From contig JASWJB010000200.1 of NCBI GenBank assembly GCA_032433595.1, forward strand, positions 17,777 to 81,776: a stretch of DNA of 64,000 nucleotides, written 5' to 3'. The position numbers were made by a program, and so were the translations under genes. The notes under the pieces are model-generated. The model saw nothing but the letters and a program-made list of their open reading frames with translations. It was not told the DNA's origin and did not search any database. Shown in pieces: positions 364 through 34,156 of this stretch. Every line of letters begins with the position of its first letter. The stretch's first letter is position 1. The stretch is from Conoideocrella luteorostrata. Lineage: Eukaryota > Ascomycota > Sordariomycetes > Hypocreales > Clavicipitaceae.

Positions 364-1540
364 TTAATCATAGTGATTATCAAGAGAACTGCCACCTTGA
401 TTCAGAGTCCTGCCCCTTTTCTAGTCTTTAAGTCGTTTTCTAAGAAAATCGCCATCCTTATTCTCCGTTGTAGGCACTGGTGGTTTGGGATCCTCTGGTG
501 TGGGTGGACTATGATCCTCGGGTACAGGTGGTTTGGGATCCTCTGGTGCGGGTAGACTATGATCCTTGGGTGCGGGTGGTTTAGGATCCTCTGGCGCGGG
601 TGGACTGTGATCCTTGGGTGCGGGTGGTTTAGGACCCTCTGGTGCGGGTGGACTGTGATTCTCTGGTGCGGGTGGGCTGTGGTCCTCTGGCTCTGGTGTT
701 GGAAGTTGCCCAGGTGGTGTAGTCTAAGCAGCTGCCTTCTTAGCCGCCTCCGCCTCCGCTGCCTTCTTGGCTGCCTCTGCTTCCACTGCCTTCTTAGCTG
801 CCTCCGCGTCCGCAGCCTTCTTTGCCGCCTCTGCATCAGCTGCCTTCTTAGCCGCCTCTGCTTCCGCAGCCTTCTTAGCTGCCTCCGCGTCTGTAGCCTT
901 CTTTGCCGCCTCCGCGTCCATAGCCTTCTTTGCCGCCTCTGCGTCCATAGCCTTCTTTGCCGCCTCTGCATCCGCAGCCTTCTTTGCTGCCTCTGCGTCC
1001 GCAGCCTTCTTTGCCGCCTCTGTGTCCGCCGCTTTCTTAGCCGCCTCCGCCTCCGCTGCCTTCTTAGCTGCCTCTGCGTCCGCTGCCTGCTTAGCGGCCT
1101 CCGCCTCCGCTGCTTTCCTAGTCTCCTCAGTAGTAGACTTAATAGCTAAGCCTTGTTCTTATAATATATGTTTTTTCTGAGGCAGAAGCCAGCTTTTATG
1201 CGTAACACACTCGCTAAACCATGTTTTATTTAGAATCTATTTCTGTTTCTTTATAGCGTCTGCGACTTCCTTGGTTAGGTTATTAAATATAGTATTAGTT
1301 ACGACTAGCATAGTGTAGTCCTCCCCTGATTTAGTAGCCTTAGTACCCCAGCTTTTTATTTTAGTACTTAAGTTTAAACAGTTATAACCGCGAAATATGC
1401 CTGCAAAGAGCATAAGTTAGTTCTCTGGTTTGGTTATAGTAGCTATAGTTGTTGAAGTGAACAGTGAAGTAAATATCTAATAGGGTATAGTGAGTGGTGA
1501 AATAAATGTTTAATGATACATATGTAAAGATTATAAGCAC
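364..1540 (-). pseudogene. RIP-broken low-complexity repeat protein
   Basis: One minus-strand reading frame can be followed from about 1540 to a TAA at 364-366, or to a TAG at 421. The N-terminal part (about 1150-1540) has no recognised domain. It is followed by about fifteen copies of a 9-residue repeat of the type EAAKKAADA (27 bp period, about 724-1130), then by a proline-rich repeat alternating PPAPEDPK and PPAPKDHS (about 470-710). The frame is interrupted only by TAG and TAA codons, for example TAG at the junction of the two repeat zones. Each is reachable from CAG or CAA by one C-to-T change, which is the RIP signature. The Ala/Lys/Glu repeats should form charged helix or coiled coil; the tail should be extended. 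Function is unknown. It is the leftmost of four minus-strand relics in the same decayed block. Confidence 0.6.
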
Positions 1541-2914: not shown

Positions 2915-3674
2915 CAAAACTACCGTGCTATAGGGAGGAGCTGTGCCATACTATAGGGACGTAAAAGCTGTGTAGCTAAGACTTCATGTTGCAGATCTAG
3001 ATACATGGTGTACGCGCTACCTCCTTGTTCCACCTAGCCATGCCATACTCTGTGACCGTGAGGTCCTTGGCTTCCTCCAGCGCTCGACTTCCTTGTAGGT
3101 CTTCCACCGCCACCTAGGTTAGTTTCCACATAACCTAGTATAACATACGTCCATTAGATACTTCACGTGCTTTAGCAAGGCAATAGAAGTCAAAGTACTC
3201 TGGGTTCCGGCTCAGAGATCGCTTCTTTTGACAACAGGGATTATCCAGATCTAAGTTATTTGTCAAAGCACGCTTCGTCTAGGTAGGCTTTAGGCCAGTA
3301 CCGCCAACGTGCGACGTTTCATTGCTCTTCGTCTTTCGCTGTGGTGCGGACTTATTGATTTTAAGAGATAAGGGATAAGTCACGCCGTAATTAACTGTCA
3401 CAGGTGCGGTGGGAGAATACAATATGCTATTGTCTTGGCTGATCTCTGGACTAACTGTTCTCGAAATTAAAGGGGCGGATTTATAGCGAACGCCCGTAAG
3501 ACAGTGTTAAGAAACAGAGTTATTGCTATTTATCTAAGAGTCCTCTTCGTTAGATTCCTTATTTAAGCTTAAGCTTTCATAAACCCTCTTAAAAATGTTA
3601 ATAAAATCTCGAGTCCTAGCTACCAATATGCCTTTAAAACGCGGTTTACGTGCTATATTAGCGCAGAGAGCCAT
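2915..3674 (-). pseudogene. RIP-broken gene with a chromo-like stretch
   Basis: The frame starts at an ATG at 3674 and can be read for about 250 codons, broken by several in-frame TAG/TAA codons. All of them can be explained as C-to-T changes of CAG/CAA or as TGG converted on the other strand. A C-terminal stretch (about 3000-3200) contains the order LAKAREV, a gap, then LY-stop-VMWKLT and EDLQGSRALEEAKDL. This resembles a chromodomain (aromatic/acidic strand, then VxWK, then an acidic helix), but the match is tentative. The promoter region has a TATA-like TATATAAGGGG at 3822-3832 and a 19-bp block at 3848-3866 shared with the next relic. Not expressed as a full protein in this state. Confidence 0.55.
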
Positions 3675-3847
3675 TATGCTATGGTTACAGGGGGGAAGCA
3701 AACGGAAGTAAAAGGCTTAATAGTGTAAAGACAGAGAAATGTGCTAAGGTAATACTAAGTGGTGATAGGGAAAGAAAAAAAGAGATCAAGGTTTTAAGGG
3801 AATGCTTATGGAAGGGACTAGCCCCTTATATACCCACGATCCGCTAG

Positions 3848-3866
3848 AGGTCACGGGTTTAGCCGT
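3848..3866 (-). promoter_or_regulatory. Shared upstream block, copy 1
   Basis: A 19-bp block 174 bp upstream of the ATG at 3674. It matches 17 of 19 bases of the block at 5078-5096, and both differences are transitions. A TATA-like element follows 16-26 bp downstream. This suggests the two relic genes were once co-regulated or share an ancestral promoter. Confidence 0.45.
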
Positions 3867-4177
3867 CTCTAAGTCAGCTAGGCTAACTTAAGCCTTTCCT
3901 TCACATGCTTAATCTCAATGTCTCCCCTATTATATATAAGAAACACACGTAGATCTAATTAACTAGGGGATTTTGGTCTTAACCCAATAAAATCCGGCTT
4001 CTCTGGATTAAGACTCACCGCATCTCACCTAAACACTGCTTATATACACAAAGAATATCTAGACACAAGAGCATTAAGCGTGACTTAGCCTTATTAAATA
4101 ATTTATTAAGTAATTTAATTTATTTAATATATATTAGTATAGCAAATAAGGAAATAAAAAAAACACTATCCAACGGT

Positions 4178-4927
4178 TCATACAGAAGTAACTTTAATAA
4201 GGATCAGATTACCACGCAAAGCCTGCTTCACTCCGATAAGTCCTGTCCTAATGCAATAAGAGTCGTGGCATAATCTAATCTAATCCGCGTAGTTATCAGA
4301 GCGGAGAAGAATCAATTGTCTCATATATATTCGCTTGACCCATAACCGGACCTGCCTGTATTGCTGTTTAATGTCCTGCGGTCAAAGAGGTGTGCCTTTA
4401 GAAGCGGCTAACCGCCGCTTTAAGTAGCAATCAAGATCAGGCACTTTGGTCCCATTAACTACAATCCAAGCCTTTAAGGCGTAATTCCACTTGAATGTCT
4501 TAACTTCAGCAACATCGTCATCACCGAAAAGCAGCTTAGCCTTAACCGCCCGGTAGTAGACTTGCTTTATGCCTCGCGAACGTCAATTAATTGCGCGTCT
4601 TGCTTGCCCCCTAATCCTCCTACTTCGCTTGTGAGAACAAACAGAGACATTCGCGGAAGACACCCCCAATTTCACGCAGCGGTTAGCTTCAGTGGCGGAT
4701 TAAACATTAGGGCGCGGCTCGTAGACCTAAACTTTGTCACGAGAATCTTCTCGATGGCGAGGTGCTAGCGAGAATTCTGACTCAGGTTCAGGGACATCCT
4801 CAGTGAAAATCACATTGAGTATTAATTAATCAACCCAGTCAGGATAGAATACTTCCAAAAATAAAGATAAGGGAGGGGCGGATTCGCTGTTTAAACCAGC
4901 TAACACCATGAATAAAGGGGATGCCAT
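4178..4927 (-). pseudogene. RIP-broken gene of unknown function
   Basis: The frame runs from an ATG at 4925-4927 for about 250 codons to a TGA at 4178-4180. It contains internal TAA, TAG and TGA codons compatible with C-to-T change of CAA, CAG or CGA. The recovered product is basic toward the C terminus: a stretch with KRSRR and RGQARRAI is followed by a better preserved segment (about 4390-4560) with YYRAVKAKLLFGDDD and WNYALKAWIVV. I do not recognise the family. It shares orientation and an upstream promoter block with the relic at 2915-3674, so the two probably belonged to the same element. Confidence 0.5.
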
Positions 4928-5077
4928 ATTTATAACAAGAAACTATCTGCAAATATTAATAAGCACTGGGTATAAGTGTAGTGGCGAACAATCAGAGGAT
5001 ATAGATAAAGGTTAGAGTTTTCTCCTAAGGGTTAGAGGGTGGCGTGGTCTCTTTATACTTTACCACCTATCGCGCCA

Positions 5078-5237: not shown

Positions 5238-7969
5238 TTAGTTTAAACAATCATCCGAGGTTATTAACTCCCAATCAGAGTCCGGTTTAGTGTGTAACCC
5301 TAGTATAGTATCATTAACTTGGTCTAACTTAGTCTCAGTCTTAGCTTCGAGTTACATCAGGTCTTGTGTAGGTGAAACAGCTCCTAATGAAGTAGTATCT
5401 ACGTAGCTATACATAAACCGCGACCTCTTTGGCCTCCTAGTCTTAACTAGCAAGTTAAAGGCTTGTTTTCTCGCGCAGGAGTTGCTCTACACTAGGAGAG
5501 GTAGTTCTAAGCTCTTTCTCTTATTTAGGATGCCCTTAACGAGGACAGCCCCTCCTAGTTCTGTCCCACCATGGTTATCTTGAATATAGGCTATCTAGCT
5601 ATCCTTATCGCCGATGACTCTTGTATTAGGAAAACATTTTAGACACGTGAACGGCTGGTTAAAAGCTTTGCTATAAGCTTTCAGCAGATATATAGAGAAT
5701 CCTTAACGGTGAAAGGTCTTATCGCATAAGAGGCATAACGCACAGGATAAGTCACAAATAAGGGGCGCATGCAGCTTCCCATGTACCCGCTCTATATGGC
5801 TGCACTAGGCCTCAAGACCAGCTGGTATTAAATAATCTCTATCTCTATTTACCTAACACTTAGGGCACTTAAGTGGCCTTTTGAAGACGTCTATGTGCAT
5901 AGCTTTAACGTGGTTAGTCAAATTCGTTTTATTGCTATACGTGCCACATCCAAGCAAGCATCTTGGTTATTCTTGTTTCTGTATTCTTATTTTGCCGGAC
6001 ACCTCTGCCTGGTTTGCCGGGCGGATTCTCTTAGTTAATTTTTAGTTCTGTAAATATAAAACAATCCAGTCTAGCAGACCTATGACGGGCTCTTTAGAGG
6101 TTATCATAGGAGCTAATGCTTTAGCAATAGCTAATATCTCTGTAAATATCCTCTTCCTGGGACTTTAAGCATTTTTTATGCGTAAATAAGTCGTAGATTC
6201 TTGCATAGCTCGCAACCAATCAACTTCGTTAAAGTATTGCTAGCGTTTCTTCTCTAGTAAAAGTTCTTCGCAGTAGTTAATAATCTAGAGAATTTTTGTA
6301 TTTAGTCTGTCTGCTTCTTTTTTGTTCCCTTCACGCGTTGCGATATCTCTTTCCTAGCTTAGACTAGTAATGTCCTTTCTCTTGTTAAAGTCTTCTAGCT
6401 CCTTGGATATAATATAGATAAGCGCTCTAGGATCCCTTTTCGAAGATAAGTCAACTATGGCTAACCATAGTGCTGGATTATGCTCTGCATGTTGACCCCA
6501 GGTTAGATTTACGAGATTATACTAGACTTAAAGCGGTTGATAGCTCTTTTTAAAAACCTCTATTGATTAAGATAAGATAAAGCTACTTAAAGAAGGCGTA
6601 AGACTTCCTGGGTTATTTATGTAGGTTAGCATAGTTTAGGTCTAGCTAGACATTAGTCTTTAAGTGAAGGGCTATACTATGTAATCTGCCAGCTACTCCC
6701 ACTCTTATCTTGTATGGTCGATGAGACTCTTGATTGCCCGCCACAATATTAACTCAATGCCACAATTTCAAGAACTATTTATATAGTATATTAATGATAT
6801 TTTTGTCTTTAAATTCCGTTTTCCAACGTAAATGCACATAGTTATTGCTATCCTCTAGAGATTTAGGTTAAAGAATCTCATCATAAGATATGAAATCCCT
6901 GTGGAATACACCATCTATAACCACTAAAGTTATTAACACTGTAATTAAACAGAGTAGCTTAAAAGGAACAAGGGTTACAGCAAAGCGAAACTTTGTCCAC
7001 TAGTCCCTGTGAATCTTATTTTGCTCCAGTTTAATATGGTAAATAGTGACGTATGTGACTAGCCAAATCCTTGTTCTAACATTAGGATCACGGACCTAAG
7101 CGATATTGATATCCTTGTATGCGATTTACACAAAACTACAGGGCCTAGTTCCAGTGATTCCAGCAATAAGGCCTGCGCCATGCCAGTACAGCCGCTTTCG
7201 CGGCTTACATAGAATGTCTTTTGCTCTTGTCCACATAGTATCGAATAGTGTGATTAAGCCAGACGAAGTAGCCGGTCTCTTTTCAAAACCCTGATATTTA
7301 TTAAGGCTAAGCTCATCGCATAATTTCGGAATCCACTAAAAGGGGCTTAATAATTAGCTAAGAGGAGCAAACCTTTAGGCATGCATAAAACTCACGCGGC
7401 TAACGTTATATACAAGAGGATAGCCCCGCCTACTCTTCCCTAAATAATACTTTACAGACCAAAAACTTGCTTTTTCACGGTTTACTAGTCTCTTTAGTTT
7501 CATGATCAGGTGGTTAGCCTCCCTCACGAGAAAGCCCCAAGCATCCTTGACCAAGGTACTACTGTCAATTGTTCGCACACTCTTGTATTCTTTAGGTCCA
7601 AGACATACGCGTTCTGTCGTTAAGTCCTGTATATATATCCTAAGAAACGTCTAAAAATATGCTAAACAACTTCTTTCTTTAATACAAAGGTTAATCCAAG
7701 GACCTTCAACTATGAGTCCTATTGCTTCCGTGAAACTTAATAGACATAAGTATCTTATCTATAGAAATAGCCTTCACAGACTCTATATACCTCTCTTAGT
7801 TCTTCTATATTCACTAACGACGCTGCTTAGTGCTTACGTTAACCTTGATTTCTTTGTCCAGAGGTACCGATTAATATTTCTCTAACTAAGCTAAAGCAAC
7901 CTTTAGGTTAAAGCATTGCATATAAGAACGCCAGAAGCGCATTATTTCTGGAGTTTTCACACGCAACAT
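5238..7969 (-). pseudogene. DUF3435/FluG-type tyrosine recombinase relic (Starship captain-like)
   Basis: About 2.7 kb of minus-strand coding sequence is recoverable in two or three frames, with more than a dozen TAG/TAA (RIP-type) stops and at least two frame changes. From the N terminus: a helical start with MRFWRSYMQ (near 7930); an ITGTRP motif (7141-7161) matching the first catalytic-arginine box of these recombinases; LLCLITVLITLVVIDGVF (6901-6955), matching the conserved LCP-ALA-DGVF region; HLRWKTE (about 6819-6837); SSKRDPRAL (6421-6446), matching the S-x-RDPRA segment downstream of the active site; and C-terminal C2H2-like fingers (Cys/His near 5895-5960, CPKC near 5865). Length and domain order fit DUF3435 proteins of 700-900 residues. 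These drive integration of Starship elements and normally sit as the first gene inside the element edge. Here the gene is dead. The exact start and any intron are uncertain. Confidence 0.72.
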
Positions 7970-8470
7970 AGCAACAACAAAAAATAATTAAAATAAAAGC
8001 AAAGAAGTCACTAAGCAAGTTCAAAATAACAACTAAAAGTAAGGGATTTAGAAAAAAAAAAAGGGAGGGTTAGGAGAGTACCCAATAAAGCAGTTAGCCT
8101 AGGCTAAGAAATAATAAGTTATACATAGTTAAACCAATAAGTAATCTTCTCTCCCGAAAGGAGGCGTAGTTACTGCTTAAAGAGGCGTGCCAGCGCCTAG
8201 GAGGGGGTATAGGCATTCTTCTCTCCTAGCAATAACTAAATACAAGAACAATGGTTAGAAACAAACGCAGCCCTTCACGAGGCTAAGTTAACGTCCCGAT
8301 TAGGGAGGTTAATAAGAATATTATCCCAATTAGGAGTTAGAGCAATAGCCCGCGCTTTGGTATCAGAGGGCAGACAAAACAGTAGGAAAAAATAGGGACA
8401 GACGTTTCTGCCGCCGTAAGAGACGGAGAGATAATTCAGCAGAACATCAGGTAAATATGAGTGCACTGTT
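7970..8470. other. Edge of the RIP-decayed block / presumed element end
   Basis: Composition changes here from TpA-rich decayed DNA to ordinary sequence, roughly between 8,250 and 8,470. If the recombinase relic is a captain, the element terminus should lie in this interval upstream of its ATG. No terminal repeat can be proved because the other end is outside the window. A short minus-strand frame at 8275-8466 is not convincing as a gene. Confidence 0.35.
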
Positions 8471-10457
8471 CACGTGATCGAACCCTAAATGCTAAGCGCC
8501 GAGGGATACAGGTTGTCCTCCAACAATGAACGCCAGCACATCCATTAATGGAGGAAGATGCATCAAAAAATTAAGGTTAAATAAGACAATGGAAGATCTT
8601 GACGGGATCCCGAATTCTCTGGTAGGTATGGTCGTATGTGATGATTTGAGGAGTAAAATCAGGTTATGGTTGAGATTAGAGTGGCACCTTCGGAAATGGC
8701 TGATGCCTCGTATTAGCTAGATTCGTACGATAGTAGAAGAAGGTGGCACACGCCACTCGGATCCTGGCTTCACACTTGGCCTCTAGGACGCAGGGGTTGA
8801 GCCCACCCGCCTGTGACCTCGTCGAATTATTTCCTGTCGCCTACATCAAACCTGTGATTGTCCGATGGCTCGAACGAATTTTAGTACCCATGCCACGGCA
8901 CTGCTGCCATCGCCAACCGTAGTGTCCTTTCATGTTGGTGGCCGAAACAGCCTCGGGTAGCAAACGACAAGCCAGGCCATGTTTCGGAGAGGAAGAACAA
9001 AAAAAGCGGCGCACCACATCTAACTGGTTAAAAGCCTTTAGGCAGATGAACATTCCGCTGACAAGGACAGAAAGCTGACTGTCAGCAGCGGCACTGGCCT
9101 GCGAATTGTCCCTGTAGACACATTTTGGTGAGTGACTCTGGCATGGCATATGCCCGATGTTGCTGACGCGTCGCGAGGCACCGGTCTCACCATAACTCCA
9201 AAAACGAGCAGCGGTGGCAATGCCCATGAAACTGGTTGGGTGGAGGTAGTCTCGAATGTTCTTTCAAGGGGGATTGAAGGCCTAGGACGAGAAGCAGGTC
9301 GCCGAGTAGATGCGCTTGAAGCTTAAGAGTACCGCCAACGCCGGGCATATATTTGTATCGTTTTAGGCCCCGACTCATGATTATGATCCCCGTTTATTCA
9401 CTCATTGGCTTTAAACAGATTAAACAGCTCACCAGAGAGAGCAAAGATATGAAAAACTCCTTTGTAGGTTGTCAATTTGAGGCATCAAAATGTGTGTGTG
9501 TGTGTGTATTTTCCGTCCAATCGTCGTAGACCACTCAGGTCCCTCAGGCTGCTCCATTCTCGCCCCGGCTTCTTAACAGCGAGAAAGAGCAGGCCGCCCA
9601 CGCGTCCCGACACGACTAAGACTAGCTCCTGTTGTTCTGACTCTCGTTTGATGTATTATTGGCTGCGTGACCTTGGAAAAGAAGCTCTTAATAGCAGGAG
9701 CCCCATTGATGCGGCAGGAATCCATTCTCTGGCCTTTCCTTGCTCTTATTTCTGGATGCCGGCGTAGGAAGCCTTGTGCCCCATTCTTTCTAAGAGGCTG
9801 ATTATCGCCGCCCTTAATGAACCGTACTAATACCGCTTTGCATTCTGAATACTGTTGTAATGAGGTATCTGACATTGATCCAATAAGTTGCAGTGCCCTG
9901 TTCTCAGCCTATACTCCTCTGACATCAAGAAGTTCTCCCGGCGTAGCTACAAAAATCTGAGTTCCATCATGGCCTATGCGGACGTTTTCAATCACATGAA
10001 CGCGGCCCTCTGTGGTGCTGACGGTCTCATTAGTGGTGGTGCTTATGTCCTCCTGTGTCACACTTTGGTGGTATTCCTCACACAGTAAAAAAGGTATAGT
10101 TGCCTGCTCACTCTTGTAAGACACACTGTTTGTGTCACGGGCCATGCTAGATTCTCTCAACGCAACGCACAACACAAGCTAGTGGGCTGTGTTCTGTACA
10201 TTTCCTAGTTACTGCAAACATGGCTTTAACAAGCACCCATTTCATTAGAAGCGGGCGGTAAAGCACCTTGCTCCGCATGGCCTGCTACTAAAGAAAGAAG
10301 CATGAAATAATGGAGAGTTTTGGGTTTCGAGATATGTAGACTGTAACCCAATGGAGATTGCCTGGCTAGACATCACAGAAGAGTCAAATGGGTCCGTTGA
10401 ATGGGTGGATAATGCTACGGGCTAAGTATTTCATTAGTTCATTTCTGCCAGGAGGAA
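8471..10457. other. Intergenic, no gene seen
   Basis: Ordinary base composition. Several overlapping short frames (60-130 codons) occur on both strands, none with a motif, intron pattern or coherent start. A short GT microsatellite lies near 9490-9508. Confidence 0.4.
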
Positions 10458-10535
10458 AATATGAGCCTATTTAAGGGTCATGACTTTCACGTGAAGAGTG
10501 GCCTCTAGCTACGCTATTTTTGAGCGCGACAGTTT
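10458..10535 (+). repeat. Dispersed repeat C, copy 1
   Basis: About 80 bp beginning at an ATGAGCCTATT stretch. It recurs in similar form at 23115-23190, with roughly three quarters of bases matching by eye. Both copies keep the order TATT-AAGGGTCAT, then GAA-AGT-GCC, then ACGCTATTTTT. They may be remnants of the same larger repeat. Confidence 0.45.
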
Positions 10536-10919
10536 CGCTTTTTTCACTCCTGAGCCACAGGTTCGAGGCAGCCTCGAAGTCCTGAAGATCTTCTATTCTA
10601 CTTGGGATTTGGAGAGACAAAATATAGGTGTTCTATCACTATGTGGCAGCTACGAATCATCTGATGCTTTGCAGTGGAAAATTGTCCTTGATGTCTATCT
10701 AATTGACGGGGAATTTGACTGCCATTCATCTCTCTAGGATGCTTCTTCCGTATTCATCTGTTCTATTGCTTCTGGCGATATCTGACGCTTCAGCTGGCAT
10801 CGTTTGTTTCTGGCAGCATCGTACGTTTTCAGCAGCATCGTGCAATTCCTCGTATCCACGGAATTCTACGTGATTCCGGTTGACATGTTCTCTTGTTGAG
10901 TAAACATGGGCCGAGTCCA

Positions 10920-12482
10920 TCATGCCGGAATTATGAGGGATTCAATTTCCTCGTCACTTAGTGACGATATGTACCCTGCAGCTTTCTCCGCCGGCGGATC
11001 TAATTCAGGTATTTCCTCTTTACACTTGCCCATTAGATCCTTCGGTATGGTCTCATCCATGGCGACCATGGTCGACCCGCAATCTGCGCCTCGAGCGACA
11101 TAAACGCTGTCTTGATCTGGGTCGTAAATGACAAGTGACCTGCGCAAAAAGTGACCGCCGATCCATAAATCTAAGTAGAAAACACAGTTAGTTACCTATT
11201 AGCCAAAGAAAAGCAGCCCCTTTGTGATGTCGATAGAATAGAAGAGAGTTCTTACCAGCACCCAGGCCCCCGCTCCTAAACGCAATAGCTAATCTACACT
11301 CGTTGTCGTTAATTCTATTCATTAAGAAATCAGAGAGAGGTATCGATATCGTAGTTTTATCGGTCATTTGAAAATCCAAAGTCGTCATAGAGTCTACAGC
11401 GCTGCAAGCGACGTGCAGCATCTTGTTATTTACTGTAGCACCCATTATTTTCACAAACCGGTCTTGGTATTTTTGTGGTATTATCAAACCCGGGCTTCCA
11501 GAGTCTAGTCCAACTGTCAAAGACTTATCCGGCATGGTATTCTCGTCGAGCACGACTTGATGGCTAGTACTGCCATTACTAAAAGACAGGGATTGCATCT
11601 TGGCGTTGAATCTATTCGCGAACAGTTGTAAGCATGAAACACGATGGGAAAGAGTATGTATGCCTTACTGCTTTAACGTATTCTGCTGCTTGATCTTCGA
11701 TGGCAAACATCTCCAGTGGACCGGAGAACTTGCTCGTATCATATCCGCCAAATGTGACTGCACCCTGGTCTTTTTTTCGCAGGGCCATGCTATAAGCTCG
11801 ATTCTTAACGAGGTGCTTTTCCTTGAGCTTTGCTAGCACTGATCCATCATTGGTCTCACCAATTGTCAAGCCCATGGTCCCGACATTGCGTGATAAATAG
11901 GAAAGTCGGTGCTTCATATTAGCAATTCCAAAACTCATATTTCCAAGCGATACACCTATAGCATAGTAAATTAGATAATTCAGCTCGACATGATGAGGAG
12001 GAGCTTAGTTTACCTCCAACAGAAACAGTGTCGGCGAACATATCTAGTGCAACTTGCTGGCCAACATAGCTGATAAAACTGTCTCGTTTGAGATTTTGTA
12101 GAGAGCGGCTGGCCTTTTGCTCAAAGTACGTTGATTTAGAACCATCTCGCACCTTGCCGTCTGGGAGACCTTGTATCCAGAGTATCTCAGATGCAGTGTC
12201 TGGCTCGACAATAACTTTCTGGGGAGGCGTCCCGATTTCAAGAATAATTCCTAGTGCTTTGATCGGTTTACTGCCTTCAAACATATAATTCTCTAATTCC
12301 GTGGAGGCTTGACGTTTTGTTTTATTTTTTAGATTCGTCTCTATTTCAGGAGGAATAGTAAATAAAGACAGCTGTAGGATGCCTTCCTTGGCGACCTTAA
12401 CGCTAGGCGTTTTTTTAGAAGCTGACGGTGCTGCTATCGCCGTGGTCAGCATCATGCTGATGACAAACTTGATGAAACCCAT
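10920..12482 (-). CDS. Secreted pepsin-like aspartic protease (family A1)
   Basis: Four exons: 12482-12014, 11955-11669, 11598-11256 and 11170-10920, with introns of 58, 70 and 85 bp. The sum is 1350 bp (449 aa) with consistent phases. It has a signal peptide (about residues 1-18), a propeptide ending at a Kex2-type KR (56-57), GTPPQ in the N-terminal lobe, a first catalytic motif DTAS (Asp95), and a second motif DSGS (Asp284). The C-terminal GGHFLR-S-VIYD segment matches the end of the fold. These features indicate an extracellular or vacuolar endopeptidase of the yapsin/candidapepsin kind. The usual first motif is DTG; here Gly is replaced by Ala, which could lower activity. The C terminus is short and lacks an obvious GPI signal. 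The gene stands alone with no partner nearby. Confidence 0.85.
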
Positions 12483-13266
12483 AGTGACGACGTAAGACGA
12501 GTGATTTGCTCAAGTTATTGAGATGAAGTTGGGCTAGATAAATAAAGTAAAAAAAAAAAAAAAAACAGGTGTTATGAGTTGTTTCTTGGGCAGTGAAATC
12601 ACTATTCTTGCTAGTAATTTGAAAATATGAATTTAGCTTATAAAGCTTCTTATAGTCTTCTGGTGGGATTTTCTTATTTCAGCCACCGGTCGACCAACAT
12701 GCAATCTTACAGTTTTAAACAACAGTAATTTTGCATTGCAGGTTGCTCCCTTAGCTCTGTGCTTGAAAATTACCGGTCATGTGTTTGAAGCTATCACTCA
12801 TGTTTTGAATATATTACCAAAATCAAAAAGCTATCCAACAGACGAGTCATATCTTTGAAACTTGCTTTCGCCTGATGCCACATAAATCAAGCTCTTAGCC
12901 TTTGTTGCTGAGCTCTGTTCTCGGCGCGCTGCCTCAGACTGTTTCCAACTTGCTAATAGTCTCACCTGCAGACCACTTGTCATGTGGCCTCTCTTTCTTG
13001 CTTATCGACTCTGGCATTTAACTCAGCCAGTCTTCCTACATCTATTCTGAAACTGTTGGGGGACACGCAGCAGATGAATATATGCATCCGCCCCAACTCG
13101 GACTTGAGAAATCCGGACCTAAGACAAGACCCACGTTGCAGGGTATGTTGGTAACGCCATACAAGACTGGACATGACAGGACGGGATTTTGTGATTTTAT
13201 TTACCTTGGGAAATGTTGGAATACCCCGTCAAGCGCAGCGTACGGGCGCACACGTGCCCGGTCACA
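12483..13266. other. Upstream region of the protease, no gene seen
   Basis: A poly-A/T tract lies at about 12549-12565 upstream of the protease start. No convincing frame follows. Confidence 0.4.
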
Positions 13267-13312
13267 TGGCCACCCTAGCACGCCCCTTCTATACAGCGCG
13301 CTCGGGGGCATT
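13267..13312 (-). repeat. 46-bp inverted repeat, left copy
   Basis: This is the reverse complement of 22136-22181 with 45 of 46 bases identical; similarity continues a little into a flanking purine-rich AAGAAGAGGAAG stretch. The repeat contains a TATA-like CTGTATA. Both copies are GC-rich. They could be ends of one large element or two copies of a small repeat in opposite orientation. Confidence 0.6.
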
Positions 13313-16300
13313 GCTCTTCCTCTTCTTTTCCCTGAGCTAACTATGGTCAAAACGAGTTGAACACCTTGTCTTTACCTATTGCTTCGTGCAAGAACCTTTT
13401 GACGTCAAATCTGAAACCTTGTGCTCCCTAATGAACCTTGTATGATGTAGCGCCAATGGAAAGTGTATTGTCGTAATGTATTTTCATGAGGTAACAAACA
13501 GCCCGGGTATTAATGCAAGTTTGAAACAGATTAAATGGTGTGAAAGTCGTATTTGGAAATGAGCTTATTTAATGAAATGGAACACACTAAATTATGCAAA
13601 GTCACATTGAATAATAGAATAGGTGGGCATCTGCGCCGCTTCGGGCTTAGCTCCTACTTACTACATGATCGAAAATCTGCCACGGTGTTTAATTACTCAT
13701 ATTTCGTCGCATTGCGGCCCACGCGAAAAACCAAAAAGGACCCGGTCCACCGTTAGTTCAGCGTGACTATTTTTGTAATGCCAGATTGGTCTGCTAGGAT
13801 ATACAGGATACATGGCAGCGATTCATAAACCGGAGGTTTTAGGCTACGATTTCTGACTGCATCAATCGAATGGAGGATCATGCATATTGACCGGAAATTT
13901 GTGCATGAATAAACCGGACGACTGTGCGTCAGCTGACTAAGGAAAGAAGAGTCCACGGCGACTGATACTTGGGCGCCTGGGCGCGCAGCTGACTAATCGC
14001 TACTGATGCTTCTTCCTCATTGGCCCATCCAAAACGCCCTCGCCAGGTCGCATCCAAAGAAACGCCGCCTACCAACTGAACAGAAATGGCCGCGGAAACT
14101 TTTGTGGAAGATTTCCTTCCACCTTGAAGACCAGTACGAATCGCGCGAGGCTCTTCAAGCTTGTGGTGCTGCCTGAGACATGCATGCTTGATAAGAAATT
14201 AGCACACAATAATACTTCTTGCAAATTATTAAATAATCATGTCATGTCCCCGCCAGTATGATGTCATTAGCAGTGTAAATAATATGTCGTCGGACGTAAT
14301 CTGGTGCACTAAGAGATGCAATAACCCGCGGGAGCGTTCGCCGAGGACAGGTGGCCACGTCGACTGACGACCAGCAAGCCAAAGGATAAGCGTGCAAGGG
14401 GTTTGGTGGTATAAAATCGTGAAGTGGGATGCGTGGGCCATCCCTTTGACTGCTGCTGCTGCTGCTGCTCTCTCGCCGTCTCCAGCGAGTCGAGGCCACC
14501 TGTATCCCGGCAAGCCGCGCGCAACTCGCCAGCAGCCATAACGCCCCGTGGACCGCGGATGCTTATCTAGGCATAATGAGCTTATTCCATGCTTCTATCG
14601 TAGATGTTTACTGGTGTCGTGGGCAGGGGAGGCGGGTGAGTGTTGCAAATCTGTGCTCCAGCCATGTTTTCCGACCGGCTCCGTAATTTCGACATTTTTG
14701 ATTTTTTGGTGCCTGCCCGCCACAACCACCACGCTGGTGACTAAGAGGCTCGCCCCCCACTCCCCCCTGTTTTTTTTTTTTTTTTTGGCAGTACTAGTAC
14801 GGCACAGCACGGCAACTAGTTGTGTGTGCGCCGCGGGTTAGTCAGTTAGTTGGCTAGTCGGCTTAGCCCCAGAGGCGACGACAGATCCGTAAGGATGGAT
14901 ACATCCACGTCATGCTGACTGAAGGCGCGAGAAATCGATCGGCTTGTTGGTTGTCGGTGATCGGCAGTAACCTGGATTTAATCAGGTGGGGGGATAGAAT
15001 AAAAACCCACCCCACTAAACTCTGCAAGTAAATATGTTTCTAATTGTTTTTCGCCGACGATGCTTACCAGCGACGGTTTTGTTGCTTGGCAGTGCATTTG
15101 CTGCCGCTTCTACTAGCGCCTGAGCCTGGGATCGTTGGGGCATCTCATGCCAAATCCAGTCGTCTCTTCCGCAAGGCCCATTTATCGATGATCGATGAGA
15201 GCCTCACGCAACTGGCTTTTTGGTTGAGGAGTATCTTGACGGACGATGGCATTGAACACTTCAATATTGCGCGGGGTAGTTAAAGCCCGCGTCTCCCCGA
15301 TCAATCATAGACAGAGGCAAGACCAACATTTGTACGGAGTAACACGAGCCACTCCAGAAGCACGCCTCGTACGGAGTACACAGACGCTAGCTCATGGGTA
15401 TCATCGGATGGTGGGTTTGGAACAACCAACGTGGCTCCCGCTAGATGCTTGCTCTAGAAAAGTACTCCGTATATTTCCCCAAACGTAAAACCCCTCCCAC
15501 GCGCGGACGGAAGCAAGTCTTTCTCAAACACAGTCACGGTAAGTGGCAAAACCACCTGGACAATTACTCGTGGGTCCTACAATCTGTCACTGTTTCACGA
15601 AACTGTTGTTCTCCCGGTGCCTCCAAGCTGCCTGACACTAATTGCATTCGTCTCTGATCCACGTATAGTAATCAAGCTTCTCACTTGTTTCGGAAGCGAG
15701 AGCAACCACATTTCTATCCTTATGTTTTGCCGTTACTGCTTTCCAGCAGTATGTTGTTTCGCGCCAGCAGCTTACGTGCACACCTTACAGGTGATGCTGA
15801 TGATGATGCTGATGCTGATGAATATTAAAAGAAAGTGGCGGCTGTGCGAGGTACCTAAATGCATTGCGCCTCGCGACTAGGCTCGTCTTTCTTGCGGACG
15901 CATGTAGTATATATACAAAATAATATCAAGCAAGGTAGGTAGTGTGGAAGATTTTAAGCAAGCGTAGCTAACCACATTACGGCGCAATCGCTTTATTAAA
16001 AATACAAAGTAGCAATATTATTAAAACCCCCGTAGATTAAATCAATATTCTAAATTTCTTTTTTTTAACCCTTTATACACTTTGTCGTAATAATAGAGTG
16101 TTTTACACTTAGACAGCGGTTTTGGTCGCGGGGTAAGCCTCGGCTCGCAGAGGTCTTTAAGCTCGACGCTATTCATCCTTTCTCAACAGTCCTTATGAGC
16201 CTAAACCATTATCGGGCCCTGTTCTGATAGGCCCTACGAGGAGCATACTATGAAGTATTTGGATAGGTAAATGAAAGAATCGGTGTGTATTTATTTTCCT

Positions 16301-17056
16301 CCGCGAGCTTCTTCCATAGCAGAATCTGACCGCCTTCTTCCCGTGTCTTAGCGTTTCTCTACACCACATCTTCGCAATATAGTACATGGCAGGCGGCAGG
16401 GAAATCACATTATAGTAGCATCTTGCGCCGGGGACATGGCATTCGAACGTTCCAGGAGGTGATCAATTGAGCCAGGCCTCCACCGTTGAAGCACTGCATT
16501 CATCAAAACTTTCAACAGGTGGACTGTGAGGATTCACAATCCCTCATCATGTTGTGTGTATGTATGTGTGTGTGCGCTCACATTACTAGAAGAAATTGGA
16601 GAGGTTTAAATTTATGTGTTATGATGGGAAGAGCTGTGTTACAGTGATGATGGAGGCGGAATTCCTTGTGTAACGGCCTCGCCCAAACACCCTCATTTAT
16701 ACGCCTACAATCTGAGACGCCCCTGACTCGAATTCCTGACTTATGCCAAGGGCCCACGTAATCCTTCTCGCGCTATCTGTGTAAGCCACACACATCCTTG
16801 TTATTCGACAACGGAAGGTCGTGACAGATTATTCTCTTCGCCTCCCACGAGCTGGTACTCGTCGGGACAGTCTGCCTGGCTGCGATGACTGAGGGGGCTG
16901 TAAATCCTGTCTAAATGGCTTGGCATTTTTTGTGTGTGGCTTGAACGTATTGATGCAAGAGTATACCCGGAGCACAGCGGCGGGTTTGGTTGCCTTGGCT
17001 TTGACGCTCTAGCCGGTAGCCTAGTTTCCAATCCAATGACAGATTAGCTAATTTCG
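13313..17056. other. Gene-poor region
   Basis: No supported gene. It holds a CTG microsatellite (about 14448-14470), a T tract (14770-14786), a GATGCT repeat (about 15793-15823), several TACGGAGTA/TACTCCGTA 9-mers (15330-15480), an AT-rich and apparently RIP-decayed patch (about 15900-16190), a GT tract (16555-16575) and a solo LTR (16581-16810). Polyglutamine-like frames at 14300-14540 come from the microsatellite. Confidence 0.5.
16581..16810 (-). repeat. Solo LTR A, copy 1
   Basis: A minus-strand copy of the solo LTR family seen at five other sites. Its 5' end (16810 on the complement) is TGTCGAATAA, and internal blocks AAGGATTACGT, GTCTCAGATTGTAGGCGTATAAA and CCTCCATCATCAC are recognisable. 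A CA-dinucleotide expansion lies just outside the 3' end. No target duplication is visible. Confidence 0.55.
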
Positions 17057-18457
17057 TTATGTTTTGCTCGCATGCTTTGCGTCTTCGTACCTAATATGAT
17101 GCTGTGAGCCGAAGGAGCCGAAGGCTCGCGGCGCAATCCGCAGCAGGACAAGCCGCATGGTCGGCAAGCATGTGCATATGAAACCAACGCAGATTTCAAT
17201 GCTAGACCACCAAACTATACCCCATAAATCCCAGGTCGGATTCACTGTTGATGCAAATTGAGCAATCGATCGCATTCGTAGGAACGAGACAATCGTGACG
17301 CTGTACGTAAGTGTCCATGGTTAGCTCGGGCTGCCCTGTCGTGTTTGTAATTAAGACTCACATTGCGCCTGTTAAGAACATTAAAGTAACCCCAACTTTC
17401 TTCTTCCAATGAAGTTTGAGTACTCTAACTTGGCTGAGAGGGATCGCAAGAAGCCAAAAATCCGATGACACCGTAATCGCACCATTGGCCCAACCAGCCG
17501 CATTAACGTTAATGCAATGTCCCTCGCGTAGGGGGCCGTCGAACTTGTCCCAATTGTAACTGATGGGGGTACATTGAAAGATGGCCGCAAGAGTAAATGC
17601 AGCGCTGAATGCGACGTGGAATCCCATAGTCCACCATAGCAGGCGTCGAATTATCTTACCAGGGAAGATACTAAGATAGAAAAAGCATAACGACAATTTT
17701 AGTTGGGCCATAAGAGAGATATAAAGAATTTGGACAACAAGGAAGTAGGTGCCAAATAACCGTAAATGAGGCTGGCTTACTCCCCAAAGATCTTTACCTA
17801 GGCCATGTGCCGTTAAGCCGGTTATTGATAAGACAATAGTTGCTAGACCAATAGGAACTGCACTTAAAATTACCCAGTCATCCGTTTCCAGACGTTTCCT
17901 AGCGCTGTAAATTTGTTTATAGACAAGGCGAATAGCAACGACTAGTGACGAAGTTGTCCCAAGTATAATTACCATAATGTTGAACTGCTCTGCTTGGTCT
18001 CGAGGAGCGACTTGGCATATGGTTTTAGTACTATTATTAATATCTGTGAGCGCAGATTAGCCATGAAAAGCGTCCAGGAGGGTTTGGACACCTACATAAA
18101 GCTTCGGGGAGAGTGCAGGCAGCGAGAACTCTGTCGGTATTGTGATTCTCTGCTTCTATTTGGCAAATACAACTAATATTGGACAACGGGCATGATTCTG
18201 CTAAATACGACCGCTACACATCAAAGGTGTAGTTGTTAGTAGGTCTGGGAATTGCCAGATGTCCGTTCGAAGTTACTCACGGCACAAGAGGGCAGCTTTG
18301 CCAACTCTTCAGCCCAGCTGCTGTTCGTTGGCACCGCGATTGATACTGCTTGTTTCGCCAATAGCAGCATTGAGAGCGCCAATACAAGATGCCCTTTGAA
18401 TCCAGATACGGCGGCGGTGAGCGATGCATAGCTCCTCCCCCGCCCAGATGGCCGCAT
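17057..18457 (-). CDS. CFEM-containing PTH11-like GPCR (fungal rhodopsin-domain protein)
   Basis: Four exons: 18457-18281, 18213-18096, 18043-17362 and 17300-17057, with introns of 67, 52 and 61 bp. The sum is 1221 bp, 406 aa. It has a signal peptide (about 20-40), then a CFEM-like cysteine domain starting at LPSCA (55-59) with cysteines at 58, 67, 74, 76, 92 and 108, then seven membrane segments of the fungal rhodopsin-domain type. Recognisable parts are the RLETDDW loop, the CTPISYNWD segment and the NPTWD-GIVWWSSIEICVGF end. The family comprises plasma-membrane receptors implicated in surface sensing and appressorium signalling. Only six CFEM cysteines are visible where eight are usual. 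The tail after the last helix is short. No functional neighbour. Confidence 0.88.
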
Positions 18458-21400
18458 TCTGAGGTCAGTGTGATAGTTATTCGTGTCGTCGGCGACAAAT
18501 ATTGCACCGAGTTCGTAGCCAATGTCTTGCTGGACCGAAGTCTTTCAGAAAATTTGGGAGGCTTGCGCTGGAGGCGTCGTTGGAGACAATGCCCCAAGCT
18601 GTTGAAGGCCTCTTTAAAAGCGGCTGAGTGATGAGACACTGCCTAGCTTCTAAGATTGTTGCCATCGAGCTGCCAGGGGATTGACTGAGGGTATTGAGAA
18701 ACGAAACATAAACGGCCACATCTGTTTCTACATTGCCGTGCACTCTGCCTCTGCCCTGGGCGTCCCGATTAATTTGCCGACACCTTGATTGCCGATGCGC
18801 GTGCGTGGAGGAGGTAAGTTGGACCCAGACACATGCACGACTCATCTCGATCGACAGCAGGGGGTTCCTTGCGCAACGGGCCTCCAGAGCCTCTCGGACC
18901 CCCCACTAGCCACGTTGCCCTGGTGGCTTTTTAGTTTTTGAGCGTTTCGAACAGTCAGACAAGCTCAAAACGGTCCAATGAGCTGTAGGCTTGGCCTTCA
19001 ACTGGGGTCCTGGTTGCCAAGTCATATCGCACGTGCTAGCATACTCTAGGTCGAAAGGAGGAAGCCAAACCCGAGCAATATCTACGTTCCATCCCCGTCC
19101 TTTATTTTTCCCTTTTTTTTTTTCCTTCTTCCCTGTGTGAAGAGGGATCTTCGCGAGACCAGATGGTGTGATAGACGGACCCTAACCTCGTAGAGTTAGC
19201 ACGGTAACTAGAAACTCGACATTACGGAGTAAGACATACTCGGTTCTCCGGATACTCCGTACGGGGAACGCTAGTGCTCCACGTGGACCACCAAACTTAT
19301 ATCTGCCATGCTAGGGACAGTTTAACCGAACCCTTTCAATTCGAACGCCCACCACGAATGCAATTAAAGCTTATTAATAATAAATTTTATTATGTAAATA
19401 GCTAACTAAGCTATATAATAATTAATGCATTTTTTTCCGTTTAATTTTATGGGGTTTTGGGTCGCTGAGGCATTATCTCTTGCGAAGCTAATGCTACATC
19501 GATGGCTCAGTTAAATTGACCCCCGCTTGTCTATCAACCGGCAATAGTTAACCCCGAGTCCAGTGGAGTTTGCAGTCAGCCCTCGTTCGGCCCCAGCCGC
19601 CGGGTCCCGAAATGAGACCAGAAAGACGCCTCATGGATTCCCTGGCAAAAAGTGCTGTTTGAGCCCACCACCATTTTTTCGAGACTAAGGCCCTGTCTTA
19701 CTAGTGGTTTCTCCAGACAGAGCGAGTATTCCGGCTAAATTCTGTGTGGCTACAAGTTGACAGAAGTCACCCAATCCCCCACCAATTCCCCACCTGCCGT
19801 GATAACAAAGGTGTCACGATGTGAACGGCTATCGACATCCGATGCTTGCAGCGGAGAATTCTCCTTGATCCTTATCTGACTTGACCAGGAATTTGGCAGC
19901 TGTTTATACCTGAAATCCACCTTAGATGCCGTCAATCTAGAAATTCCGTCTGACGTAGCTGAATTTATTGAATTCGACAGTTTCCTCTTAACCCAATTTT
20001 TTTTTTTTAGTGCTGGCTCGGTGGCTTGAGCTAATCTCTTAGCGCCTCTTATCATTATCTATTGCTGCCCATTGTGGCGTGCGGCTAAACTTTCAGCTCT
20101 TTTATTGTGAGCAGAGATGAAGCTTTTGCTAGTATGTAGAAGAGTAAAAAAAAATATATAATTTAATAGCCTAAAGGAGTAAACTAGATTTCATAGGGTT
20201 CCATCGCGCATGTGACTCCTTGTTGTGCTATTGCGTGCGACAAAAGATGCCGCGTTTTGCCCGCAAAGAAATTAGGGCATGAGGCTGGAAAGTGGGGCTT
20301 TAGCTAGTCCTTTGTGTACTAGCTATTTGCGTGCACAACGGCCATCTTACCACGCGTAATATACGAGATACTCCATGCCCGCCGATTTCATCGGCATCAT
20401 AGGCACGGGGAAACCATCGGATTCGTTGACTATGCTGCTACTGCTGGCGATGCTACTGACGAAGGTCATGTTGCTTGATGTTTATGCCGCTGCTGCTGCT
20501 GACCGTCCAATCACTATACAGCGATCGCCCAGTGACTCATGAAAAGATTATTGTGGGTGTTAATCAATTCGTCTGCAGATCTCCTAGGCCGGCGTGGTCG
20601 TATTTCGCCGCCCCTAACTCGTGGATTGACGGGCGTAGTTCCGTTTAGGAGCTAGTGGCAGACATGCTTCCCAGGCCGCCAAGGACAATCGCAGCTCACA
20701 AAGGTCCGTGACGCTCTGGTTCGAGGAGACGGGAGGGATAGTTAGTTATCCAAACTGTTTGCAAGCTCGGCCTTGATTGCCTAGATCAGTTTCTGCCAAA
20801 GTTTGAAAGAGCCGTTTCAGAATCGGGAGGTTATGCTATCTACGGGGTCGACGTCTTTGGCACTAACCCGCTAGGCTGCACAATGCTTCCAGCTAGTCGT
20901 TTCGACGATAATGAAAGTCTAGAGATCCACTCATCTTTTTTTGATTCTTTTGAGAATGATCTCTAGCCAGCTGTAATTGACTTGACTGATTACAATACCA
21001 ACAAAGGGAGATGTAGGGATAAATCGACCCGGTTTTTGGTGTAGTACATGGCAAAAAGAACGACCAAAGGGGGGAACCGCCGGGTGGTAGAGCCAGCCAA
21101 ATGGTACAAGCTCTCTCCTCATCCGCCGCTCTATGTTTGGTCAAGGCGGACCAGGTTACAGACGACCAACGGGTCGTATACGCTAACCGCACAAGTAAAT
21201 GGTGCAAGACAGGTAGTTACTGACTCAGCGACGAGTCTGATCAGCCCCTATACTACTCGGATGAATCAAATGATAAGGAACAGACGGACGAGTGGAGTGG
21301 CAGTTAGGCGGGTGATGGCGGGAAAGAATCCTCCATGTGTACGGAGTATAAACACCCAATGAAGGAATGGTGGGTAATCTCCCTTGCACGCGAAGTGGAC

Positions 21401-22135
21401 CATTTTTTGGACAACAAGCCAGTGAATTATTGCCTGGGCTATCAATAGACAATGGCACCCCCGGAGGTAGAGCTTACAATCCTGGATCCTGGCCCTACCG
21501 CGGCCTGAGCGGCGCACCTAAAGTGGCCGAAGCGAAGCGTCGGTACTCAAAAGTCTTTTGCTTTTTTTGGATGTTGGAATGACATAAAAGAGAACAGAAT
21601 TAGCAGTGTTAATCGAACAAGTAATGTGAATTAGTAAAGCGGAAAGGAATAAAACGCACAGAAACTAGGAATAGCATTAGTCAGCTAATAAAGCTGAGAT
21701 GCACAGTGCAAATAGAAAACAGGGCAAGAAGGACAGCAAGTAATATCGTGCGCGTGACCCGCGATGGATTCACTGCTGCAAGCACGCAATACTGAATAAT
21801 AACCAGAGCGACGCATAGTACAGCTTATTCAGCGATGCGTGAATGCAAGTAATAGATAAGGCAGTATTATAAGTGGAGGTAGTTATTCCGTAAGGGGTGA
21901 GGGAGTTCTTGCTCTTCACTTTCGATTGTTCTTTAGTTAGTAACATCTTTCGATAGCGCGGGCTGCCTAACTTCAATATTTGTTGCCGTAACCATATGGA
22001 GACCTAGGGGGACGACAACCAACTTGCAGGGCTTCGGGTGACGAGGGTATCTATACCGGAACGTGAAGCAAAACAATGTGCAAAACGATTCAATTCATTC
22101 GTGACTATCTAGAAGAGAAGAAGAAGAAGAGGAAG
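18458..22135. other. Gene-poor region
   Basis: No confident gene. It contains an AT-rich patch (about 19360-19460), a T tract (19998-20008), a GCTGCTACTG/GCTGCTGCTG repeat patch (20430-20505), and TACGGAGTA-type 9-mers near 19205-19265 and 21337. A minus-strand frame of 101 codons (19750-20055) has no motif. Confidence 0.4.
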
Positions 22136-22181
22136 AATGCCCCCGAGCGCGCTGTATAAAAGGGGCGTGCTAGGGTGGCCA
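22136..22181 (+). repeat. 46-bp inverted repeat, right copy
   Basis: Partner of 13267-13312 in opposite orientation, differing at one base. It follows a GAA-rich tract (22110-22135) and contains CTGTATAAAAGGGGCG, which looks like a TATA box. Confidence 0.6.
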
Positions 22182-22399
22182 CGGGTAGCTCAAGGGGCGT
22201 CGGCAGCCCTCCAGTTTCGGAGAGGCCTACATTGTGTGTGATGCAGCGGAAGAAGCCGACTGCGCTCTCATTGTCGGTTCTAGGATGGCCTGGTGAAGGT
22301 TTTCTACCAAAGATTGTTTTAGGGACATCCATCTGGATGAGCCTTATCGTTGCACAGTACAGTCTTTACATTCCAACACGCATTCCGTGGAGGAGCAGC

Positions 22400-22860
22400 T
22401 GCGTCTGGTGCGCACTACCGCAACGAAAGTCCCAGAAAGGGCAGAAGTTAAGGGTGAAGCGAAGGTGACCTGGTGCCGTATAAATGGGCCAAGCGAGGCG
22501 GAAAATCGGGAACCTGGACCATGGCCTCGTCAGCATGTAGAGGGAACAGGACATCGTTCGTTGGTTTGGTTGTATGCAGACGTGTGCTGTGTCATTTCGG
22601 GCGAAAGAGTCTTTCCTAGATAGACCCTATATGCCGACCCGATTAGAGGAAGGCGTACGAGTACGCCATGAAAGGCTCGGAGGGCGACGGAGGGCGACGA
22701 CGGAGGGACTGTGACCTGGCCAGAGGATTACACTGGGAGCAGTGGACACCTCTTTAGCGAGAGACCGTGAATACATAGATGTGCGCACAGTCATTAGTGA
22801 CATTGACACAGAGCGTTGTAAGAACTACGTAGAGATGTAACAGTAACGATGATGGAAATA
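22400..22860 (+). pseudogene. Decayed paralogue of the orphan gene at 32969-33832
   Basis: The frame around 22387-22623 contains KVTWCRI, then VEG-G-----VWLYADVC, matching ITWCRM and LEGVG-WTAIWLYSDMC of the intact gene at 32969. About 40 bp further, AYEYAM and then HWEQWTPL-stop-RETVNT-stop-MC match the intact YEYAM and HWEKWSPLQRECVNTWMC in the same order. Two in-frame TAG codons stand where the intact gene has CAG and TGG. The centre is shortened. Only the middle part of the gene remains and there is no start codon. Function of the family is unknown. Confidence 0.65.
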
Positions 22861-23114
22861 ATTTCAGCCCTTGGAGATCTATTTTCCGCTATGATGGACA
22901 TACTTTTAATGGGGTAAACAAGTTTAGCCAAGAAGACGTTCGTGGAAGGAACGGAAACTCCGGAAGGGAGGGCACGAAAAAAGTAAACTATAGTTGCGAA
23001 TGGAGACAGATGTAAATGAAATGACACAGAATGGCGCATACGAGGAGCTGTTCATGACGGGCGTACAGACAGACAGCAATTGTAACGAGTGAAGACGGAT
23101 GTCACAGGAAATTA

Positions 23115-23190
23115 TGAGCCTATTCAAGGGTCATAACTACACATGAAAAGTAGCCACTTATTACGCTATTTTTTGTGTGACAACACTTGA
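23115..23190 (+). repeat. Dispersed repeat C, copy 2
   Basis: Diverged copy of 10458-10535, sharing TATGAGCCTATT-AAGGGTCAT and ACGCTATTTTT. It lies just downstream of the decayed paralogue. Confidence 0.4.
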
Positions 23191-24068
23191 CAACGTCACA
23201 GACGCAACGTAAGACCATGTAGAGTGAGAGCACTGTAAGTCGTTAGTGAGGAGCAATAAACCTCTGAATAAGTTAAGAACATCAAAGAAGTGCCGCAATC
23301 CGACCGCCTTGTGATAAAAGCGCCAATTATAAGTTTGAAAGTCACATTTGATGTAAGCATGCCATCTCACAAAACCCAGCAGCGCTGATGCTTTTTGTGT
23401 ATTAGAATGGATATAAGGTCACTAGTCTTGCTATCGATCACAGACAAGTCAAACAAGATGATACTATATTCCCGCCTACGATGAGCATTCGACACACCTC
23501 ACTGTAGTACTCCAGCATACCACCAGACAGCTTACTGCTCAATGAAGACTCTTTCACCGGCCAGGACCCTCTATCCACCGGCTATCAGCCACTGTCTTGG
23601 ATTTATTTTGCGGGCAAGGAAGGCAAAAGCTCGAAGCACGTTCAAGGCCCTCTGGTGCAAATCCCGCACCATCTGCATGGCTTGCAATTTGAGTACGATG
23701 AAGCTCGCGAGACGCGGGTTTCCGATAAGCTTGGTCGCTGCAATGAAAGTGAATCACCGGGCACACTATTTTTAATTGACGAACTCTCTATTCTGTTGAT
23801 ACTGACGATAGCAGGATGCTATATACCGCCTAGTAAGCCTGGGTGTCAGTCATATCCGAACAGATCGTCGATACACTTTAGGAATGGCAAATTAGACCTC
23901 TTCTTATAGATTACTTCTAGCCAGAGATTTCGCCATTGAATTCGTCACCGTCAGGGGCCTCGTTTCGGAGGCGTCAGAGGTGCTGTTTCGGAGCCGTGTG
24001 AGACATCGCAGGATAGCCCCCGTGGCATGTGGTCAATGAACAACACGAGCCATCGTAGCCCACACCTG
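23191..24068. other. Intergenic, possible unrecognised relic
   Basis: Both strands carry short frames at about 23540-23770. A minus-strand frame there reads like protein (LQAMQMVRDLHQRALNVLRAF) but matches no family I know and has no start or splice context. Not called as a gene. Confidence 0.25.
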
Positions 24069-24584: not shown

Positions 24585-24659
24585 AATATGTGTTAATATT
24601 GTAAACATTGTGTACACGTCTAAAATACGGAGAAAGTATTCTAGGGCAAACTGTATTAA

Positions 24660-27180: not shown

Positions 27181-27194
27181 GAATTCTTGCGTAG

Positions 27195-34151: not shown

Positions 34152-34156
34152 AGCCC

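Follow-up and report, generated by a model that had tools for sequence, protein, structure and literature searches.

Together with the decayed block of genes on its left, a dead tyrosine recombinase of the DUF3435 family in the genome of Conoideocrella luteorostrata very probably represents the 5' end of a derelict Starship. Starships are recently recognised mobile elements that have been linked to the transfer of genes from one fungus to another (PMC12289983, PMC11623301). The identity as a Starship is strongly supported by gene content and layout. The recombinase relic with its putative catalytic residues, the accessory relics in their order and the change in composition are observed, whereas we infer the borders of the element, its past mobility, the cause of its decay and the unity of captain and cargo; the status of captain derives from the homology, position and orientation of the recombinase and from the accessory genes.

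In the proposed element the captain, a DUF3435 tyrosine recombinase with C-terminal zinc fingers, would lie some hundreds of bases within the right border (near 8.0-8.5 kb) and would be read leftwards into the element; by the mechanism described in the literature, it would have moved the entire element in a cut-and-paste manner, using its active-site tyrosine for Cre-like strand exchange. The cargo behind it would comprise a small chromodomain-like gene, MADS-like genes and ferric-reductase-like (FRE-like), patatin-like and DUF3723 genes. The element would later have been inactivated by C-to-T decay, probably of the RIP type, and would now be immobile.

Sequence and Searches

The window is the whole stretch of 64,000 bases that was analysed, corresponding to bases 17777-81776 of contig C200 (81,776 bases), and coordinates are those of the window unless they carry a contig prefix such as C200:. 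The genome searched, that of a scale-insect pathogen, comprises 46.4 Mb in 620 contigs; for C. luteorostrata strain ARSEF 14590 the published assembly, built from Illumina reads, consists of 864 scaffolds and 47.39 Mb (PMC12352038) and, given the difference in size, may be another version; the word Starship is absent from this genome announcement. The PF11917 profile search of the genome scored 24 candidates with a cut-off of 25.8 bits, and the sequence to the left of the window (C200:1-17776) was scanned with Pfam in six frames at E 0.01. For comparison C24:1-40000 was chosen because this contig carries both DUF3723 and PF00319 matches, and stretches of C42, C97, C608 and C234 were compared with C200 in the same way.

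Extent and Homology of the Recombinase Relic

The recombinase occupies the following features of the window:

5502..7737, minus strand: dead DUF3435 tyrosine recombinase, the putative captain (tblastn of P0001-P0010, search of the species' own genome with P0001)
6793..7239, minus strand: PF11917 (DUF3435) profile match; two putative catalytic residues, the first Arg (in ITGTRP) and the Lys, fall within it (profile search, alignment)
5615..5960, minus strand: C2H2 zinc-finger-like C-terminal region, partly degraded (alignment to P0001)
7738..8470: unaligned N-terminal codons and the presumed 5' non-coding end of the element (residue 74 at 7737, CRI change at 8.25-8.75 kb)

The initial annotation had recognised DUF3435 motifs on the minus strand, and these are indeed found there, GITGTRP and LLCLITVLITLVVIDGVF sharing one frame and SSKRDPRAL and the C2H2-like cysteines lying in another. 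The test of the translated relic against PF11917 was likewise positive: the profile matches at 6793-7239 on the minus strand (C200:24569-25015) with 38.4 bits against the cut-off of 25.8 (E 1.3e-8), and a read-through piece of the relic matches profile positions 21-154 of 418 with E 1.9e-9. The 24 candidates scored in the genome gave 17 PF11917 matches, one of which is the window relic, and 16 exceed the family cut-off.

Used as a query in a database search, the read-through translation retrieved P0001 of F. albosuccineum (E 1.8e-79) and P0002 of F. keratoplasticum (E 2.4e-67), and P0001 recovers ten proteins including itself (P0001-P0010), all from Fusarium or Neonectria, with P0003 of F. keratoplasticum and P0004 of F. 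mangiferae among them; only candidates sharing short words were scored in this search, so relatives in other taxa may exist. All the captain relatives found belong to Nectriaceae, and seven of the ten are 775-849 aa long with the fingers at the C-terminus. These DUF3435-C2H2 proteins, which are 26-38% identical to the relic, are its closest recombinase relatives found.

The comparison of P0001 with window positions 1-9000 by tblastn gives E 2.3e-91: residues 74-407 align at 7737-6679 with 10 stops and residues 408-764 (of 842) at 6608-5538 with 13 stops, both on the minus strand. The tracts of the relic lie in two frames, 7737-6673 and 6608-5502, with 23 in-frame stops and one frame change in all. 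The alignment of one relative begins at 7740, and extrapolation from the 73 unaligned N-terminal residues would put the start near 7956. The relic at 5502-7737 is a nearly full-length, dead DUF3435 tyrosine recombinase; its location on the minus strand stands as first described, while the extent of 5238-8470 has to be reduced to a coding part of approximately 5502-7737, or 2.2 kb.

Across the 46.4-Mb genome P0001 matches the window locus and, weakly and through its own zinc-finger region, one locus on C93 (E 8e-4). Open reading frames (up to six per locus) from eight other DUF3435 loci gave nothing at E 0.01 in tblastn against C200:1-26776, and the relic is thus far from those. Regarding the zinc fingers, the family profile has weak matches in the PDB, the best being CTCF (2ct1, E 0.004), and a Pfam search of the zinc-finger piece of the relic returned no match; a sequence search of the PDB (27 matches at E 1) yielded zinc-finger proteins and one RNA-editing protein and no recombinase. 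The AlphaFold model of P0001, built with 10 sequences, is too poor to use (mean pLDDT 48, pTM 0.27). Elsewhere in the genome C326:1012-2004 and C326:20427-21308 are related DUF3435 genes, 75% identical and 19 kb apart, with no stops in the matched stretch, and are possibly less decayed recombinases.

Putative Catalytic Residues

Despite its stops, the relic retains all five putative catalytic residues, aligned to R251, K289, Y396, R399 and Y430 of P0001. In the family alignment Y396, R399 and Y430 are each present in 10/10 sequences, and R251 and K289 are each present in all nine sequences with a letter at that position. Over the whole alignment 228 of 678 aligned residues are identical, and among the 70 invariant or nearly invariant family columns that were tested, 41 are identical in the relic.

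The captain of Sanctuary has Y424, R427 and Y458, its two tyrosines being the counterparts of those that HhpA reportedly requires (PMC12506042), and the spacing of Y396-R399-Y430 in P0001 (+3, +31) is the same as that of Y424-R427-Y458. The R, K, YxxR and Y signature of Starship recombinases, as in Sanctuary and HhpA, is accordingly found by alignment, in the form of putative catalytic residues. When the profile was compared with three further DUF3435 proteins from this genome, YxxR aligned (92% probability, E 5.5e-7) but the nucleophile Tyr did not.

Decay and the Edge of the Proposed Element

RIP-type decay had been described as ending beside the relic, and the composite RIP index (CRI) does change sign at 8.25-8.75 kb, with a mixed pattern farther left. 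In particular, the CRI is +0.84 at 8001-8500, -0.24 at 8251-8750 and -0.56 at 8501-9000; of the 13 windows of 500 bases, each overlapping the next by half, that cover 5001-8500, 12 are positive, and the windows that follow, as far as 11,250, are negative. Slightly negative values occur in the 1-kb windows 1-1000, 2001-3000 and 4001-5000, and the RIP-like composition is mixed across the 17.8 kb to the left of the window.

The stops of the relic can be compared with the residues that its relatives conserve. Three are TAG at a conserved Trp (in 10/10, in 8/9, the ninth being a gap, and in 8/8 alignments), one is TAG at a conserved Gln (9/10 alignments, the tenth a gap), and the sole TGA is aligned to a conserved Arg in 10/10 alignments. 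These Trp/Gln to TAG and Arg to TGA stops fit C-to-T/G-to-A decay; the other 18 of the 23 stops follow no single pattern.

The orientation of the relic and the composition edge fit a captain that reads inward from the end of an element, and we infer the right border near 8.0-8.5 kb. A comparison of 7740-8700 with C200:1-9500 found a longest direct match of 11 bases and a longest inverted match of 13, the longest direct matches in 30 shuffles being 10-14, so that no terminal repeat, direct or inverted, stood out from the shuffles; only 17.8 kb of contig remain to the left of the window, and the contig may end inside the element. On the other side of the presumed border lies the remainder of the window:

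8500..64000: flank with mostly negative CRI, bearing DUF3295, NLR-like (PNP_UDP_1, ankyrin) and kinase-like genes and taken as outside the element

In this flank, the open frames at 39724-43344 on the minus strand are NLR-like, with a PNP_UDP_1 domain, a winged helix and ankyrin repeats. The frame at 29859-30845 is of DUF3295 type and its product is 100% identical to P0011 of C. luteorostrata; the full protein (P0011) lacks PF08550, which is present in many of its 120 listed relatives, and has a 65% identical paralogue in the same species.

Accessory Genes of the Decayed Block

Three more relic genes had been placed on the strand of the captain, downstream of it, and they differ in how far homology sustains them:

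2972..4026, minus strand: small relic gene behind the putative captain, its likeness to chromodomains seen only by eye (copy on C42, relative on C24)
4250..4945, minus strand: probable further relic gene (sequence; no homologue found)
402..1450, minus strand: relic gene with Ala/Lys/Glu-type repeats (repeat-type matches only)

The first holds up, since its copy on C42 shows 78% and 68% DNA identity and a relative is present on C24; Pfam gave no match for this gene, in the minus frames of the window, nor for the C24 relative. For the relic at 4.25-4.95 kb neither the Pfam scan nor the comparisons with other contigs of the genome returned a homologue, and that at 0.4-1.45 kb has a repeat-type match on C97 (E 3.5e-5) and a sub-cut-off match to Plasmodium_HRP.

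The rest of the element had been predicted to the left of base 1, and the 17.8 kb there do hold broken relatives of DUF3723 and ferric-reductase-like genes, besides a gene that is patatin-like by eye. The DUF3723 relic lies at C200:9746-10660 on the minus strand (Pfam, E 8.4e-42), which is the strand of the captain, as are two MADS-like PF00319 remnants at C200:7948-8061 (E 4.3e-6) and at C200:14490-14591 (E 0.0022, below cut-off); the sole other Pfam match in C200:1-17776 is a sub-cut-off Prefoldin_3 (E 0.005). The FRE-like relic at C200:15569-16791 matches C24:21801-23402 with E 4e-36, and this C24 stretch matches Ferric_reduct PF01794 with E 4e-5 (24.1 bits, below the cut-off of 28) and NAD_binding_6 with E 0.012. 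The gene at C24:23863-26537 lies in several frames; in a Pfam search at E 10 one of its pieces has a marginal RING-like match (E 0.11). The patatin genes of the genome (four of the six Pfam matches) do not match this gene or its C200 partner, the best E values being 0.17 on C24 and 0.024 on C200, so that the patatin-like identity remains by eye.

Most of the C200 partners contain stops, with 13 stops per 383 aligned residues in the FRE-like gene, 12 per 693 in the patatin-like gene, 6 per 444 in DUF3723, 2 per 60 in the small gene and none in a 52-residue segment at C200:6171. The accessory genes listed for Starships include DUF3723, FRE, PLP and NLR (PMC12506042); in the C200 block DUF3723 is found, together with a FRE-like gene whose C24 relative scores below the Pfam cut-off and a PLP recognised by eye only, and the Pfam scans of the block (five of six frames for window 1-5400) gave no NLR domain.

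The Related Block on C24 and Alternative Explanations

A related block on C24 shares five collinear segments with C200, at 26-39% amino-acid identity, the FRE-like gene and the last segment being flipped relative to DUF3723 between the two contigs:

C24:13551-14051 to C200:20985-20806: shared segment 1 (small gene)
C24:21801-23402 to C200:15569-16791: shared segment 2 (FRE-like)
C24:23863-26537 to C200:13648-11324: shared segment 3 (patatin-like by eye)
C24:26492-29464 to C200:10957-9626: shared segment 4 (DUF3723)
C24:33364-34100 to C200:6171-6480: shared segment 5

The accessory-block relatives within C24:13000-34100 (FRE-like, DUF3723, small gene) are largely open, and the neighbouring frames look metabolic by eye. 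Beyond the presumed border (C200:26-37.8 kb) C24 matches one dispersed repeat only; this repeat, at 16595-16792, is common to C24 and C97 at approximately 73-75% identity. PF11917 has no match on C24, and the accessory block is therefore no proof of a captain. The P0001 family gave weak alignments only against the stretches of C24, C42, C234, C97 and C608 at E 0.5, the best on C24 (E 0.024) falling inside the patatin-like gene.

The other contigs share less with C200. C608 has a DUF3723 match and C42 the copy of the small gene, the remaining matches, C97 included, being dispersed or low-complexity repeats; three short matches at C234:26030-26945 (60-390 bases, 69-85%) are collinear along C200:7608-9293, and their order indicates that a fragment of the far part of the block is also on C234. 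On C42 the copy of the small gene has an 850-aa open frame (C42:76378-78927) 0.5 kb away, which may resemble ADP-ribosylating enterotoxin A-chain proteins of insect-pathogenic fungi. The N-terminal part of P0001 matches weakly at C42:89061-89249 (E 0.002, 22% identity, one stop), about 8.4 kb from the same copy; this is perhaps another captain remnant, or due to chance.

DUF3435 was found on at least 11 contigs and DUF3723 on at least 13, and among the matches found C200 is the only contig with both. The pairing of the two families alone is weak evidence, since it occurs on 1 of 11 DUF3435 contigs (the counts being lower bounds) and chance alone would yield about 0.1 such pairs, at a distance of up to 15 kb, in the whole genome. 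A solo DUF3435 relic could have come to lie by chance beside an unrelated island of accessory genes, captain and cargo never having moved together; the C24 block without a PF11917 match, the ten other DUF3435 contigs without a DUF3723 match and the frequency of solo DUF3435 genes, which reportedly outnumber captains (PMC12134995), all agree with such an origin. It is nevertheless unlikely, because the relic is placed where the decayed block ends and is oriented towards its interior, and the small gene behind it is the outermost segment shared with C24, the place that a captain would precede.

Less probable still is an old host accessory cluster unrelated to Starships, in which C24 and C200 would have arisen by duplication of a host segment and the C200 copy would have decayed. 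The FRE-like and DUF3723 genes of C24 are open and the block adjoins open frames that by eye resemble ordinary metabolic genes, as a host cluster would have it, but Starships are reported to combine DUF3723 and FRE genes with a DUF3435 recombinase (PMC12506042). Moreover, the identity of 26-39% and the flipped FRE-like gene are better explained by diverged mobile elements than by a recent segmental duplication. A Crypton, or another tyrosine recombinase element outside the Starships, can practically be dismissed: the block holds Starship accessories, and Cryptons are not known to carry such genes. Cryptons are likewise fungal and have tyrosine recombinases, but these are very distantly related to those of Starships (PMC12134995), and PF11917 is the only Pfam family matched by the relic pieces (Pfam at E 1) and is carried by their relatives.

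Comparison with Known Starships and Significance

The derelict Starship proposed for C200 can be compared with described elements such as Sanctuary of Bipolaris sorokiniana (PMC12506042), which resembles the relic in length, C-terminal DNA-binding region and YxxR...Y spacing and the block in its captain reading inward from the edge and in its DUF3723 and FRE-like genes (the patatin-like gene by eye). In contrast to such Starships, the putative C200 captain is broken by 23 stops, neither borders nor direct repeats were found, and about 19 kb are seen (C200:6171-25513), which is not the full length of an element. Starships described as derelict or degraded have decayed cargo and a captain that is dead or missing, as proposed for C200 (PMC12134995); C200 differs from them in that its captain is still recognisable and a related block without a PF11917 match exists on C24. 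A Starship with a DUF3435 captain has been reported in F. xylarioides (PMC11620798).

It is also conceivable, at a rather low probability, that C200 and C24 hold two sister Starships sharing an accessory core, the captain being decayed on C200 and C24 having no detectable DUF3435, so that a captain would have been lost or replaced behind conserved cargo with the chromodomain-like gene as a fixed second gene. If true, this would show such a loss or replacement as it has occurred in nature. The pair, one member with a DUF3435 match and one lacking it but both with a common accessory core, lends itself to testing whether captains are lost or swapped. For Conoideocrella, a scale-insect pathogen, the C200 element adds a probable dead Starship.
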